From: an uncultured Eubacteriales bacterium
GTDB taxonomy: Bacteria; Bacillota; Clostridia; Christensenellales; CALVMC01
Assembly (NCBI GenBank): GCA_949296455.1
Contig: CASFOZ010000008.1
Location: 1-64,000 of the forward strand
Direction of reading: 5' to 3'
Length of the DNA: 64,000 bases
Part shown: one piece after another, positions 4,432 to 56,521 of the stretch
Position numbering within the stretch: the stretch's first letter is position 1
Layout: each line of letters opens with the position of its first letter
Program-made: the position numbers and the translations under genes
The notes under the pieces: model-generated
The model's database searches: none
The model's input: the letters and a program-made list of their open reading frames with translations, nothing else
Told to the model about the DNA's origin: nothing

Positions 4432-6135
4432 ATGAAAAAAATTGTAATTTATGCTAGATATTCTAGTGATAGGCAAACGGAGCAGTCGATCGAGGGGCAA
4501 CTTCGAGTGTGTCACGAGTATGCAGAGCGCAATGATTATGTGGTTGTTCATGAGTATATCGACAGGGCACTTTCAGGGACGACCGACAGAAGACCTGCCT
4601 TTTTGCAGATGATTGAGGACAGCAAGAAAAAAGAGTTTGAGTATGTGCTGGTGTATCAACTTGATAGGTTTGCAAGGAATAGATATGACAGTGCGAACTA
4701 CAAAATGAAACTTAAAAAGAATGGAGTGCGAGTGCTGTCGGCAAGAGAAAATATTTCGGATGATGCCAGCGGAATTTTGATGGAAAGCGTGCTTGAAGGT
4801 ATGGCGGAGTATTATTCTGCCGAGCTCAGCCAAAAGGTTAAGCGTGGGGTGCGTGAAAGTTTGATTAAGGGCTATTACACAGGCGGGCAGGTCACATACG
4901 GCTACAAAATTGAAGATAAGAAATGGAAAATTGATGAAGAGCACGCAGAGTTTGTTCGGCAGGCGTTTAATGAATATGCAGTGGGAGAGAAGGCGACTGA
5001 AATTGCTGACCATCTAAATGCACAAGGTTCAAGAACTACGACTGGCAAAAAGTGGAACGGCAATGCGATTTCAAAGATGCTACACAACCAAAGATATATG
5101 GGAATTGAAAAGTTTGGTGGTGAGATTTTTGCCGATGTAATTCCACCAATAGTTGAAGAAAAGTTGTGGCAAGTGGTGAATGGTATGATGGAGCACTATC
5201 GCAGGAACTACAAAAAGGACAAATACGACCCATACTTTTTAACAGGCAAAATCTTCTGTGGATACTGCGGTGAAAGCGTGATTGCCGAGGCAGGTTCCAG
5301 TCATTTGGGAACGAGATACAAATATTATAAGTGCCACACTAAAAAGGTCAAGGGCAAGGCATGTTTGCTTAGAAACTATCGCAAGCATGAACTTGAACAA
5401 CTCATTATTGACAAGACTAAAAAATATATTTTAACTCCAAGCAAAATTGAGGAGATTGCTCATATGGTTGTGGACAGATACAACTCCGAGATTTCAAACA
5501 ATGTTGTGCTTAAATGCCTTGAAAAAGAACTTAGACAAATAAATAACAAAATAAATAGCCTTGTGAAAAATATGGAACAGGGCATAGTTTTGCTCGCCCT
5601 TCGTGAAACGCTTTACAAACTTGAAAATGACAGGGCAGATATTCAACTTAAAATTGCCGAAGAGAAAAGTAAGTTTGATAAGCCACTAAACTTTGAAGAT
5701 GTCAAAAATTTTATATCACTATTTGCCAGCAAAGATTATGACGACGTGTTTGAGCGAAACGAATTTTTCAACCGATTTATCAAAAAGGTGCTTTTATTCA
5801 ATGATAAAATTATTGTGATTGTGCGAGGTGGCAAAGGTGCCGACAATGAACTTGCCATAAACAACGACGAACTTTACGCAAAAAGAATTTTAGAAAAATT
5901 TGAGAAAAAAGAAACAAGTGAAAATAATTTAGAAAATAAAAATGGGAGTTTCGACAATTCGGGCTCCCATTTTTGTGAAAATGATAAAATTTTAAAAGAA
6001 AAAGAGGCTGAATTAGACAATTTCGTCCATCAGCCTCCTCGTGGCGGAGAGTTAGGGATTCGAACCCCAGGTAGCTTGCACTACAACGGTTTTCAAGACC
6101 GCCGCTTTCGACCGCTCAGCCAACTCTCCGAATAA
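4432..6135 (+). CDS. large serine recombinase (integrase of the island)
   Basis: 567 residues from the ATG at 4432, which has AGGAG about six bases upstream. A longer in-frame start at 4348 lacks a ribosome binding site. The N-terminal resolvase domain has YARYSSDRQ with the likely catalytic serine at residue 11 and QLDRFARN around 75-82. A recombinase domain follows, then a zinc ribbon (CGYCG at about 274, later CHTKK and KACLLR) and a coiled coil. Enzymes of this type integrate and excise mobile elements. The last part is odd: the frame passes through an intrinsic terminator at 5938-5974 and then antisense through tRNA-Ser (6042-6129), which gives the spurious tail GELGIRTPG. The native protein probably ended before or near 5938, and the tail is probably host sequence gained at integration or by loss of a stop. 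Confidence 0.9.
   Translation: MKKIVIYARYSSDRQTEQSIEGQLRVCHEYAERNDYVVVHEYIDRALSGTTDRRPAFLQMIEDSKKKEFEYVLVYQLDRFARNRYDSANYKMKLKKNGVRVLSARENISDDASGILMESVLEGMAEYYSAELSQKVKRGVRESLIKGYYTGGQVTYGYKIEDKKWKIDEEHAEFVRQAFNEYAVGEKATEIADHLNAQGSRTTTGKKWNGNAISKMLHNQRYMGIEKFGGEIFADVIPPIVEEKLWQVVNGMMEHYRRNYKKDKYDPYFLTGKIFCGYCGESVIAEAGSSHLGTRYKYYKCHTKKVKGKACLLRNYRKHELEQLIIDKTKKYILTPSKIEEIAHMVVDRYNSEISNNVVLKCLEKELRQINNKINSLVKNMEQGIVLLALRETLYKLENDRADIQLKIAEEKSKFDKPLNFEDVKNFISLFASKDYDDVFERNEFFNRFIKKVLLFNDKIIVIVRGGKGADNELAINNDELYAKRILEKFEKKETSENNLENKNGSFDNSGSHFCENDKILKEKEAELDNFVHQPPRGGELGIRTPGSLHYNGFQDRRFRPLSQLSE
5938..5974 (+). terminator. intrinsic terminator inside the annotated recombinase frame
   Basis: AAAAATGGGAG (5938-5948) and CTCCCATTTTT (5964-5974) form a perfect 11-bp stem ending in T residues. 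Being A-rich on one side and T-rich on the other, it can work in both directions. Its position inside the open frame suggests that the recombinase mRNA ends here and that the frame beyond is not normally translated. Confidence 0.75.
6004..6037 (-). terminator. intrinsic terminator of tRNA-Ser
   Basis: On the minus strand GAGGCTGA and TCAGCCTC (complement of 6030-6037 and 6004-6011) form an 8-bp stem followed by TTTTTCTTTT, starting five bases past the tRNA CCA end. It is the natural terminator of the tRNA gene and implies that the original chromosome sequence continues to at least about 6000. Confidence 0.8.
6042..6129 (-). tRNA. tRNA-Ser (anticodon TGA)
   Basis: On the minus strand the acceptor arms GGAGAGT (6123-6129) and ACTCTCC (6046-6052) pair. 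The D-arm has GGCTGAGCGGTC, the anticodon loop reads CTTGAAA (anticodon TGA), a long variable arm follows as in class II tRNAs, and the T-loop is GGTTCGAATCC. Discriminator G and an encoded CCA end at 6042. The length of 88 nt suits tRNA-Ser. It reads UCN codons. The integrase gene abuts its 3' side, the usual position of tRNA-associated islands. Confidence 0.97.
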
Positions 6136-27888: not shown

Positions 27889-27905
27889 ATTTCAATAAAA
27901 TAACA

Positions 27906-28097
27906 GTAACAAACGCAGTAACAAACGCAGTAACAAACGCAGTAACAAACGCAGTAACAAACACAGTAACAAACGCAGTAACAAACGCAGTAACAATCGC
28001 AGTGATAAACATAGTGACAAACGTAGCAATAAACACAGCAATAAACACAGTAATAAATATAGTAATAATCAAAGTTAATATCGCCGTTATAATCATA
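27906..28097. repeat. 12-bp minisatellite, 16 units in register
   Basis: Units of GTAACAAACGCA. Units 1-4, 6 and 7 are identical, units 5 and 8 have one change, and units 9-16 drift progressively, with no insertion or deletion over 192 bp. Because the period is a multiple of three, both strands stay open: plus reads VTNA repeats, minus reads AFVT repeats (a 69-codon frame at 27887-28096). Neither frame has a ribosome binding site, so I do not call a gene. The remaining 28098-28339 before gdhA is AT-rich with nothing further recognised. Confidence 0.9.
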
Positions 28098-42185: not shown

Positions 42186-43137
42186 AAGAAATTCTGTCGA
42201 AGAAGAGATTACGGAAAAAGTGCTTATTGATGATTTTGCCAAAGAAAACGGACTTGAAATACTGTACCGCTCGGATAACGAGTATATTACTTTTTCCACT
42301 GTCACGATAAACAGGCCCGGACTTTTACTTGCCGGTTTTTCAGACTATTTTGAAAATACAAGAATTCAGGCAATAGGCAATGCGGAAACTTATTATCTTA
42401 AATCTCTTTCTGTTGAAAACAGAATAGAAGCGCTCGATAAACTCTTTTCCCAAAAAGTACCCTGCGTTATTGTCGCAAGGGGAGTTGAGCCTTTCAATGA
42501 AATGCTTAATGCTGCGAGAATGAACAACGTTCCGCTTTTGGTATCGCCTAAAAGAACTTTCGAACTCGTAAACGATTTAACAGAATATCTTAATAAATTG
42601 CTTGCTCCGGTATGCAATACCCACGGAGTTCTCATAGATGTCAACGGTATAGGGGTTCTTATCAACGGAAAAAGCGGTATAGGTAAAAGCGAGACTGCTT
42701 TGGAACTTGTCCACAGAGGACACAGATTAGTTGCGGACGATGTTGTCATTATGAAAAAAATAAAAGACGAGATTATCGGTACCGCTCCCGAAAGTATAAG
42801 GTTTTTTATGGAAATAAGAGGGGTGGGGATTATAGATGTCAGAAGAATGTTCGGGATAGGCTCCATTCTTTTCAATAAAAAAATCGATATCGCCGTCGAA
42901 CTTGTAAAATGGGAACAAGATAAAGAATACGAAAGACTCGGGAAGGATATTAAGTATACCGATATTATGGGTATAAAAATTCCGAAAATTACTATTCCCG
43001 TAATTCCCGGAAGAAACCTTGCTATCGTTATCGAAGTTGCCGCAAGAAATTTTTATCTCAGAAAATTAGGCTACAATTCCGCAGCTGTTCTCGACGAAAA
43101 AGTCAAAAAAGAATGGGCGTCAGGCTTCGAAAGCTGA
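42178..43137 (+). CDS. hprK: HPr kinase/phosphorylase
   Basis: 319 residues from the ATG at 42178, which has GGGGGAA upstream. A TTG-initiated version from 42166 is less likely. The N-terminal domain is of DRTGG type. The Walker A is INGKSGIGKSETALEL (about 161-176) and the HprK signature MEIRGVGIIDVRRMFG follows. HprK phosphorylates Ser46 of HPr and reverses it, controlling catabolite repression in Firmicutes. The 3' end overlaps the convergent TSCPD gene by 18 bases. A His-less HPr-like protein lies 0.9 kb away. Confidence 0.95.
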   Translation: MDKRNSVEEEITEKVLIDDFAKENGLEILYRSDNEYITFSTVTINRPGLLLAGFSDYFENTRIQAIGNAETYYLKSLSVENRIEALDKLFSQKVPCVIVARGVEPFNEMLNAARMNNVPLLVSPKRTFELVNDLTEYLNKLLAPVCNTHGVLIDVNGIGVLINGKSGIGKSETALELVHRGHRLVADDVVIMKKIKDEIIGTAPESIRFFMEIRGVGIIDVRRMFGIGSILFNKKIDIAVELVKWEQDKEYERLGKDIKYTDIMGIKIPKITIPVIPGRNLAIVIEVAARNFYLRKLGYNSAAVLDEKVKKEWASGFES

Positions 43138-44043: not shown

Positions 44044-44274
44044 TCAGCTTACTATATAACGGGAAAGTTCGCTGATTAAATCGTCGCAGGAATCATTATA
44101 TATTTCGAGTACGAGGTTGCTGCTGAAATCTAAACTGAATACGCCGAGTTCGGATTTTGCGTTAACTACATATCTGCCCGAACGCAAATCGATATCGTAA
44201 GGATATTTGTTTACTATTTCGACAAAATTTTTAACGGATTCCGCTTTGTTCATTGTGACGGCAATCGATTTCAT
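44044..44274 (-). CDS. HPr-like protein lacking the active-site histidine
   Basis: 76 residues. The part DIDLRSGRYVVNAKSELG aligns without gaps with the HPr segment around Ser46, so S41 is the likely HprK target (AKSELGVFSL against LKSIMGVMSL). The PTS site is gone: HPr His15 falls on K10 and Arg17 on E12. It therefore cannot accept phosphate from enzyme I and recalls B. subtilis Crh, where His15 is also replaced. GAGGTGT precedes the ATG. The first gene of a pair with DUF4364. Confidence 0.75.
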   Translation of the reverse strand: MKSIAVTMNKAESVKNFVEIVNKYPYDIDLRSGRYVVNAKSELGVFSLDFSSNLVLEIYNDSCDDLISELSRYIVS

Positions 44275-44380
44275 ATTTACACCTCGGGAAATTTAAATGA
44301 ATTATGTCTTAAACAAGGCTATTATAATAAATATCTTTTATAATTGCAAGGATTTTTTATCAAATCCGCTCTATAAAGTA

Positions 44381-53668: not shown

Positions 53669-54241
53669 ATGACGACAGAAGAAGTTTTGGAAATTTTTAA
53701 AAAGACAGGCGGTATTTTAAAAGGGCATTTTCTTTTGACCTCTGGAAGGCACAGCGATACATATATGCAGTGCGCTAAACTCTTTATCGATACTTCCGCA
53801 AGCGAAAAACTTTGCAAAGAACTTGCTACAAAACTAAAAGGGATAGATATAGATATCGTTGTTTCGCCCGCAATTGGCGGAATACTTATGGGATACGAAA
53901 TGGCACGTCAACTCAATAAACCGAATATATTTGCCGAAAGAGAAAACGATGTTATGACTTTAAGAAGGGGATTCAGCGTCGAAAAGGGAGCAAAAGTATT
54001 AGTGGTAGAAGATGTTGTGACTACCGGCGGTTCGGTTAAGGACGTTATTGCAATGCTCAAAGAAAAAGGCGCAGATGTCGTAGCGGTTGCTTCTATCGTC
54101 GACAGAAGCGCAGGTAAAGTCGATTTCGGCGTCAAGTATGTAAATCTTATTTCAATGGATATAGTCTCTTACGAAGCGGATAAATGTCCTTTCTGTAAAA
54201 CAATGGGAGCGCCGATTAAACCGGGAAGCAGAAAAATATAA
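53669..54241 (+). CDS. pyrE: orotate phosphoribosyltransferase
   Basis: 190 residues. PRPP motif VLVVEDVVTTGGSVKDVI (about 110-127) and FLLTSGRHSDTYMQCA at the N-terminus. It makes OMP from orotate. AAGGAG precedes the ATG. It is the last gene of the operon, after a 172-base gap with no visible terminator, and it is followed by an intrinsic terminator at 54375. Confidence 0.97.
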   Translation: MTTEEVLEIFKKTGGILKGHFLLTSGRHSDTYMQCAKLFIDTSASEKLCKELATKLKGIDIDIVVSPAIGGILMGYEMARQLNKPNIFAERENDVMTLRRGFSVEKGAKVLVVEDVVTTGGSVKDVIAMLKEKGADVVAVASIVDRSAGKVDFGVKYVNLISMDIVSYEADKCPFCKTMGAPIKPGSRKI

Positions 54242-54374
54242 AAGCAATTGTATCGATATAAATTATGATAAACGGTATTTAATTTAAAATTAAATTTATT
54301 TTAAATACAAATATTATAAATTTTTAAATTAAAATTTATCGAAAAATTCTCATTGAAAAATAAACAGTTTAAAT

Positions 54375-54403
54375 AAAAAAGAGACCCCTCGGTCTCTTTT
54401 TTT
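54375..54403 (+). terminator. intrinsic terminator after pyrE
   Basis: AAAAAAGAGACC (54375-54386), CCTC loop, GGTCTCTTTTTTT: a strong symmetric hairpin closing the pyr operon about 130 bases after the stop codon. Confidence 0.93.
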
Positions 54404-54491
54404 AGTACTCTAACTTATATTATATCATTTTATACGCAGTTTTACAATATAGTTTTGGAAAATTTTTTTAAGAAAATTTTCCAAAACAGTA

Positions 54492-54519
54492 TTGACTTTT
54501 TGATTTAAAGGAATATAAT
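54492..54519 (+). promoter_or_regulatory. strong promoter of the structured RNA
   Basis: TTGACT (54492-54497) and TATAAT (54514-54519) with a 16-bp spacer, downstream of the pyr terminator and facing a region with no open frame. Expected start near 54526. Confidence 0.85.
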
Positions 54520-54525
54520 AGAAGT

Positions 54526-54983
54526 ATAGATAGAGATGAGTTGAGAACTTTCTATTGACGGATAAGCAATAAGATTTGCTTCAATAGAAAAATTAAATTT
54601 ATTTCTATTTAAACTTTCAGTTAAAGAAAGTTTACGCCAAGCAATGAGCGAAAGAGTTGCATCGGAGCAAAGACTCAGCAAACGCTGAGTAAACCTTAAC
54701 GAGGTCAGGCGAAAAGCCCGTCCGGAAATGTAAAACAAGGACCAGAAGTTCGGTATCAGCCGGATTTAGAGCGGTTCAAACCGCAACAAAAAATAATACT
54801 TGTATTTTACGCAAAGAAACAAGTGACTATTGAATTATCCGAACGCTTTTGAGCGTCCAACCGTTGCTTAAGTTGTCTGAGGCGTAGTGTAAGGGGAAGC
54901 CATAATGAATTATGGGAAATTATAAGACAAATTACAAGTATTATTCAAAAAAGAGACGCAGCGATGCGTCTCTTTCTTTTTGT
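54526..54983 (+). ncRNA. structured free-standing noncoding RNA, family not recognised
   Basis: About 458 nt between a consensus promoter and a terminator, with no coding frame. Paired elements seen directly, from 5' to 3': TTTCTATTGA (54549-54558) with TCAATAGAAA (54581-54590), enclosing AGCAA/TTGCT; AAACTTTC/GAAAGTTT (54611-54633); ACTCAGC, loop AAAC, GCTGAGT (54673-54690); GGC/GCC with GAAAA loop (54708-54718); TCCGG with CCGGA (54721 and 54760); GCGGT, TCAA, ACCGC (54771-54784). A 13-bp perfect stem, AATAATACTTGTA (54792-54804) with TACAAGTATTATT (54933-54945), encloses a 3' domain with ACGCT/AGCGT, CCATAA/TTATGG and TTGTCT/AGACAA. I checked by eye for RNase P, tmRNA, SRP, 6S and intron signatures and found none. 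Confidence 0.8.
54951..54983 (+). terminator. intrinsic terminator of the structured RNA
   Basis: AAGAGACGCA (54951-54960), GCGA tetraloop, TGCGTCTCTT (54965-54974), followed by TCTTTTTG. It closes the RNA started at 54526. Confidence 0.92.
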
Positions 54984-55019: not shown

Positions 55020-55133
55020 GTTATTTTTACTGTTTTAGTATTTAATTTAAACTTTCGGTTATTTTTACTGTTTTAGTATTTAATTTAAACTTTCGGTTAT
55101 TTTTACTGTTTTAGTATTTAGTTTAAACTTTCG
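55020..55133. repeat. 38-bp tandem repeat, three copies
   Basis: Three contiguous 38-bp units (55020-55057, 55058-55095, 55096-55133), beginning GTTATTTTTACTGTTTTAGT and ending AAACTTTCG. The third has one A-to-G change. A degenerate fourth start follows. They fill the gap between the RNA terminator and the convergent PFL gene, are very T-rich on the plus strand and contain no gene. Confidence 0.92.
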
Positions 55134-55171
55134 GTTATTTTTTCGGTTTTCGTATTTATTTTTTTCGGTTT

Positions 55172-56521
55172 TCAGTTTTTATTGCTGTGAATGGGCGCAG
55201 GAATTTTTCCTCCTCGCATAATGAATTTAGCAGGGGAAGAAGTATTGACTGCAATAACGGGCGCAGTGCCTAAAAGCCCGCCGAATTCCACTTCGTCGCC
55301 GGCCTTTTTACCGTAGGCAGGTATTATTCTTACTGCCGTAGTCTTATTGTTAACCATTCCGATAGCAGCCTCGTCTGCGATAATCGCCGATATTATTTCC
55401 TCGCTCGTGTCACCGGGAATGGCTATCATATCGAGTCCTACGCTGCATACCGATGTCATTGCTTCGAGTTTGTCGAGTTTGAGTTTTCCTGCCCGTGCGG
55501 CGTTTATCATTCCTATATCTTCGCTTACCGGTATAAATGCTCCCGATAAACCGCCTATTGAAGAACTTGCCATTATTCCGCCTTTTTTAACTGCGTCGTT
55601 CAGCATGGCAAGGGCGGCTGTCGTTCCCGAACCGCCTACGCTTTCAAGTCCCATTTCTTCAAGTATATGCGCTACGCTGTCGCCTACGGCAGGGGTAGGG
55701 GCAAGCGAAAGGTCGACTATTCCGAATTTGACTTTCAGTCTTCTGCTCGCTTCTCTTGCTACGAGTTCTCCGACTCTTGTTATTTTAAATGCAGTCTGTT
55801 TGATTACTTCCGATACTTCGTTCAAACTTCCGTCGCATTTTTCAAGCGCGCATTTAACGACTCCCGGTCCGCTTACGCCTACATTTATTACCGTGTCGCT
55901 TTCGCCGACTCCGTGAAAAGCTCCTGCCATAAACGGATTATCTTCTACGGCATTGCAGAATACTACAAGTTTTGCGCACGCTATCGAAGAGTTCTCTCTC
56001 GTGTTATAAGCGCATTCCTTGACTATCTTGCCCATAAGTTTTACGGCGTCCATATTTATTCCGGCTTTTGTCGTTCCTACATTTACCGACGAACATATCT
56101 TTTTAGTGACCGTCAAGGCTTCGGGTATGGTTTTTATAAAATTTTCTTCGTATTCGGTCATTCCTTTATGAACTAATGTGCTGTATCCTCCGAGAAAATC
56201 AATTCCTATCTGGTCGGCTATTTTATCCAATGTCACTGCTATTTTCAATCCGTCGTTATTAGAGGCGCTTATTAAACTTATCGGCGTTACGGATACTCTC
56301 TTGTTTACTATGGGTATTCCGTATTCTTTTTCTATCTCTTCTCCGACCTTAACGAGATTTCCCGCCTTTTTCATTATCTTATCGTATATCTTTATACATA
56401 CTTTATTCGTGTCTTCTCCTGCGCAGTCAAAAAGCGATATACCCATAGTTATAGTGCGCACATCGAGATGCTGATCGGAAATCATTTTTATTGTTTCTAT
56501 TATCTGAGATTGCGATATCAT
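55172..56521 (-). CDS. PFL family protein (UPF0210/DUF711)
   Basis: 449 residues. Family pattern: [16 protein letters not shown] at the N-terminus, [16 protein letters not shown], and [20 protein letters not shown] in the C-terminal half. The family is structurally related to pyruvate formate lyase but lacks a confirmed activity. It is found next to an ACT-domain regulator, as here (11 bases apart), in Firmicutes and archaea. GAGGTAAAT precedes the ATG. Function unknown. Confidence 0.9.

Follow-up and report, generated by a model that had tools for sequence, protein, structure and literature searches.

Genomic context of the proposed RNA locus

The gene-free gap of ~930 nt between pyrE (53669-54241, + strand) and a convergent DUF711 gene (55172-56521, - strand) houses a proposed RNA gene of ~458 nt (54526-54983, + strand), within the 64-kb window, that is, the whole stretch of DNA analysed in the present study. 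The surroundings of the locus comprise pyr genes, DUF711, an ACT domain and a pyrophosphatase. The limits given for the proposed gene are the start expected from its promoter and the tail of its terminator. The promoter is of the sigma-70 type (TTGACT-16-TATAAT, 54492-54519, + strand), matches the consensus at 11 of 12 positions and is identical in a sister species. On the same strand, an intrinsic terminator occupies 54950-54983, with an 11-bp stem and a 4-nt loop (stem-loop part 54950-54975) followed by a T tract. A preliminary description of this locus had named both elements; the promoter is as it stated, and the terminator is strong, with a stem of 11 rather than the claimed 10 bp. Its placing of the locus also holds: the flanks are a pyr-side terminator (about 54383-54405), which precedes the RNA promoter, and the convergent DUF711 gene. 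Just 5' of the -35 box lies a 15-bp AT-rich inverted repeat, GTTTTGGAAAATTTT...AAAATTTTCCAAAAC (54452-54487), which is identical in the sister species and there falls inside an exchanged tract.

The 430 nt from promoter to terminator carry no sense-strand frame of 20 amino acids. In keeping with the lack of a coding frame noted previously, no + strand ORF of at least 20 amino acids lies wholly inside the transcript; the sole + strand ORF of that length begins at 54912 and extends beyond the RNA terminator. We also considered an mRNA reading, whether for a type I toxin or for a small peptide, and dropped it because the RNA interval has no internal frame. By BLAST, the RNA is present as a single copy in the host genome.

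Comparison with known RNA families

Examination of the whole 64-kb window with Rfam 15 at gathering score recovered only a tRNA (6045-6129), the one Rfam tRNA in the window, situated 48 kb from the RNA locus, and no family at the locus itself. The cmscan comparison proposed in the preliminary description was also run with relaxed filters on 701 bases of the locus and on the sister copy, and gave no plausible match at E ≤ 10; the matches returned were weak and biologically implausible and were taken as chance. The OLE, ROOL, GOLLD and raiA models gave nothing at E ≤ 10 for the copy of either species. The A-type RNase P RNA (C3:69134, 265.7 bits), tmRNA (C10:34019, 168.3 bits) and 6S RNA (C8:70190, 51.4 bits) are each encoded elsewhere in the host genome, and the locus was rejected as a candidate for any of the three. 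The SRP model matched the locus neither at gathering score nor in the relaxed cmscan, and the same holds for the Rfam models of introns, HEARO and guide RNAs. In the earlier reading, RNase P RNA, tmRNA, SRP RNA and introns lacked motifs matching this RNA.

It is quite unlikely that the locus belongs to one of the known large classes (OLE, ROOL, GOLLD, raiA, HEARO or similar) and has diverged too far for the models to recognise it. The size, promoter-terminator layout and many hairpins do resemble such RNAs, and the host belongs to the Clostridia, such RNAs being reported from Bacillota (PMC12286853, PMC11706538), but none of these classes appeared at E ≤ 10 among the 701 bases or in the sister copy under relaxed conditions. 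A ROOL or GOLLD identity is further opposed by the housekeeping character of the neighbouring genes and by the lack of any match in phage or viral collections.

Predicted secondary structure

The folding energy of the RNA is -136.8 kcal/mol, compared with -95.2 (sd 5.3) in dinucleotide shuffles (z = -7.9), and 0 of 100 shuffles folded as well. Without the terminator, the z-score is -7.1 on the + strand and -4.3 on the - strand, and the core alone scores -4.0 on the sense strand and -1.5 on the opposite strand. The 5' AU-rich hairpin domain (z -6.7) and the core account for a large share of this excess stability; the 3' domain by itself is weak (z -2.1). A scan of 160-nt windows between 48 and 60 kb placed the most extreme z-scores at the RNA locus and its upstream spacer.

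The predicted fold contains more than eight hairpins, in line with the at least eight noted previously. All elements are on the + strand. The 5' domain P1 (54527-54611) is modelled as a stem (54527-54542/54596-54611) enclosing an inner hairpin (54549-54558/54581-54590), and is followed by the P2 hairpin (54610-54634; 54610-54618/54626-54634). The core comprises P3 (54641-54660; 54641-54645/54656-54660), which is included in the core covariance model R1, and P4 (54662-54725; 54662-54666/54721-54725), predicted to close the hairpins P5 (54673-54679/54684-54690), P6 (54693-54696/54702-54705) and P7 (54708-54710/54716-54718), the last with a loop 3 nt longer in the sister copy. P3 is found in the minimum free energy (MFE) structure of the sister copy and is absent from that of the host copy, and P4 is likewise the MFE pairing in the sister copy only. 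Downstream are P8 (54746-54767; 54746-54753/54760-54767) and P9 (GCGGU-NCAA-ACCGC, 54771-54784), the latter changed only in its loop in the sister copy. The 3' domain (54792-54945) is closed by the 13-bp perfect stem reported earlier, here P10 (54792-54804/54933-54945).

Competing helices are also predicted (e.g. 54632-54638/54881-54887 and 54639-54646/54862-54869). The inner part of the 3' domain has alternative pairings, because 54631-54646 and a segment at about 54806-54828, both lying on its 5' side, can each pair with the 3' strand 54862-54887. A candidate long-range pairing, CGGAUAA/UUAUCCG, would join 54559-54565 to 54835-54841 (-6.9 kcal/mol, arms mostly unpaired). It was equalled by 2 of 300 shuffles at an unpaired probability >0.7 and by 69 of 300 at >0.5. 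Leaving out the terminator weakens it, and a stricter threshold returned nothing in the terminator-less sequence. Given the 69 shuffles at the looser threshold and this weakening, we regard the pairing as a lead only.

Downstream of the RNA is a 38-nt tandem repeat of 3.8 copies (55020-55162), and the 5' arm of P2 contains most of a 17-mer, ATTTAAACTTTCAGTTA, that it has in common with these repeats. A search of the 64-kb window for the 17-mer ATTTAAACTTTCRGTTA found it only at P2 (54607) and in three repeat copies, one of which has a single mismatch; the only other site within 3 mismatches has 3. This arrangement bears on the main rival explanation, a base-pairing regulatory RNA that might, as one possibility, act on the tail of the mRNA from the convergent DUF711 gene, since the complement of the repeat would fall in the 3' end of that mRNA and pair with the RNA at 16 of 17 bases. 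We nevertheless judge such a role unlikely: the common 17-mer may come from local duplication, AT-rich sequence eases matches of this kind, the predicted fold of the RNA already engages the P2 arm in a helix, and the sister assembly has a gap where the repeats would lie. Elsewhere in the window, a separate 12-nt tandem repeat, CAGTAACAAACG, is present in about 13-15 copies (27904-28080).

Comparison with the sister species

The sister species (CALVMC010000008.1, an uncultured Clostridia bacterium) is the only other species of the genus in the data. The gene order pyrE - RNA - DUF711 gene is kept there as far as the assembly shows, where one contig stops within the RNA terminator and a second one shortly beyond the DUF711 gene. 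The two RNA copies are 98% identical, and across 20 kb the two species share 92% identity. In the tracts 54116-54661 and 54777-54960 they do not differ at all (100% identity), and no other identical run in those 20 kb is as long as the first tract. These tracts include noncoding spacer and therefore indicate recent exchange rather than selection, the identity of the outer parts of the RNA apparently stemming from that exchange. The stretch of identity from 54116 to 54960 is broken only by a 115-nt variable core, a pattern that would fit either exchange in a mosaic fashion or a core that diversifies. Two more long tracts without differences between the species lie at 42223-42482 and 44057-44360.

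All eight differences between the copies fall in the 115-nt core, namely (sister versus host) U54662C, 3 additional nt in the P7 loop, U54729A, deletion of C54736, G54739A, G54759U, G54763A and U54776A. None of the 37 modelled pairs is broken by them, and two changes convert a wobble pair to a Watson-Crick pair in the sister copy, U·G to C-G at 54662-54725 (P4) and U·G to U-A at 54750-54763 (P8). The same six substitutions placed at random in the interval broke 3.67 pairs on average and none in 0.24% of trials, a figure that is flattered because both sequences guided the choice of the modelled structure (P4). In a stability test, which is independent of the choice of P4, 3.9% of random mutants were at least as stable as the real sister core. 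Taken together, the two tests speak for structural selection acting on the core. The comparison of homologues comprises one relative, with two one-sided pair changes and no both-sided change, true covariation being unobtainable because the two copies are near-identical.

These observations bear on two further explanations. A non-functional, AT-rich intergenic sequence with a fortuitous promoter, hairpins and terminator would be compatible with the 100% identity of the 5' and 3' parts and of the spacer; the conservation of these parts says nothing for function, because it apparently reflects recent exchange. We consider this very unlikely in view of the folding surplus that persists without the terminator (z -7.1), the difference between strands in the core (-4.0 sense versus -1.5 opposite) and the avoidance of pair breakage by the core substitutions. 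Recent exchange between the two species would equally suit a remnant of a mobile element or a CRISPR-related RNA (an intron, a guide RNA or a distant tracrRNA), and the host genome does hold a type II CRISPR locus. This origin is the least probable of those considered, as Rfam intron, HEARO and guide-RNA models found nothing at the locus, the RNA is single copy, inspection by eye revealed no complementarity to the CRISPR repeat (GTTTTAGTTCCC...) and the adjacent genes examined include no transposase or reverse transcriptase. The CRISPR array is on host contig C1 (L039:5900-11513), a separate contig from the RNA, and has a 36-nt repeat, GTTTTAGTTCCCTTTTAATTTTTGGTATGGTATAAT, a 66-nt spacing and a Cas9-like ORF of 1127 amino acids. 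A 44-base BLAST match to the Cas9 gene of a relative (L006) was dismissed as chance; with the host's own Cas9 region, BLAST gave no match beyond chance.

Distribution

When 101 whole genomes were searched by BLAST, the RNA turned up in the host and the one sister species alone. The collection of homologues by blastn foreseen in the preliminary description did obtain one relative, but no others. Two covariance models were built, R1 for the core and R2 for the 3' domain, each from two near-identical sequences. Order-level searches with the models (396 and 297 genomes) recovered only the host and sister species, searches at class (391 genomes) and phylum (399 genomes) level only the host's own copy, and more sensitive model filters nothing credible in 39 genomes. 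Of the 11 hits returned when a gapped core pattern was applied to about 85,000 species genomes, one is real (the sister species); the remaining 10 match neither covariance model and were rejected. The phage and viral-contig collections held no match to the RNA, and the plasmid search gave short weak matches only. In the DUF711 surroundings of 28 more distant relatives the RNA is absent, and an Rfam scan of 19 of these 28 loci found no family. Weak model hits elsewhere (L020-L023, L073-L075) were discarded as lying inside genes, as simple terminator-like hairpins or as poor alignments, as were BLAST hits with E of about 1e-3 to 1e-5 (G014, G040, G051, G085), which correspond to AT-rich stretches, a terminator or a Cas9 gene. 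The RNA is apparently restricted to one genus of uncultured Clostridia, a restriction that holds only at the sensitivity reached, because models of two sequences miss very diverged relatives.

Proposed identity and comparison with known systems

Judged from its sequence, the locus very probably encodes a genuine stand-alone RNA that is under structural constraint and narrowly distributed, and it is probably functional. Transcription would begin at about 54526 on the RNA's own promoter, and the transcript is predicted to fold into an AU-rich 5' domain (P1-P2), a GC-richer core and a 3' domain with P10 as its closing stem, the core being laid out as P3, the P4 junction holding P5-P7, then P8 and P9. 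It would act in trans as a folded molecule, the most likely mode for a free, highly structured RNA that lacks a frame and is served by a promoter and a terminator of its own. The role of RNA part of a particle or protein-binding scaffold is suggested as most likely by likeness to OLE and raiA RNAs (PMC9723947, PMC11706538). We lean towards this reading as a whole, that is, a stand-alone, non-coding, multi-domain RNA of ~458 nt acting in trans as a folded molecule, most likely as part of a particle or as a protein-binding scaffold, and restricted to its genus at the sensitivity reached. More tentatively, it may represent a new genus-restricted class of ~458 nt, with fixed outer domains and a diversifying central junction, forming an RNA or RNP particle unlike those described. 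The preliminary description had suggested a new or rare class; in support, no Rfam family matches and the differences between copies respect the modelled pairs, but class status rests on one relative of 98% identity and is not established, because several diverged relatives are required and one exists in the data.

Few large structured bacterial RNAs are known, most of them without a known function. If the proposed reading is true, lineage-specific ornate RNAs exist that escape surveys requiring wide conservation; the finding matters less if the RNA turns out to be an ordinary regulatory RNA.

OLE RNA is likewise a stand-alone, large, multi-domain RNA of Gram-positive hosts, many of them anaerobes, whose precise biochemical function is unknown. 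It is about 600 nt long with highly conserved sequence regions (PMC9723947), in contrast to the ~458 nt of the present RNA, which the OLE model does not match. The raiA motif RNA (ModT) is, like the present RNA, structured, non-coding and found in Bacillota; it is conserved in >2,500 species (PMC11706538), compared with two species here, and its model also goes unmatched. ROOL and GOLLD share with the present RNA the character of large ornate bacterial RNAs of unknown function. They are encoded by phages or prophages, frequently close to tRNA islands (PMC12286853), whereas the present RNA, matched by neither model and by nothing in the phage collections, has housekeeping genes as its neighbours.
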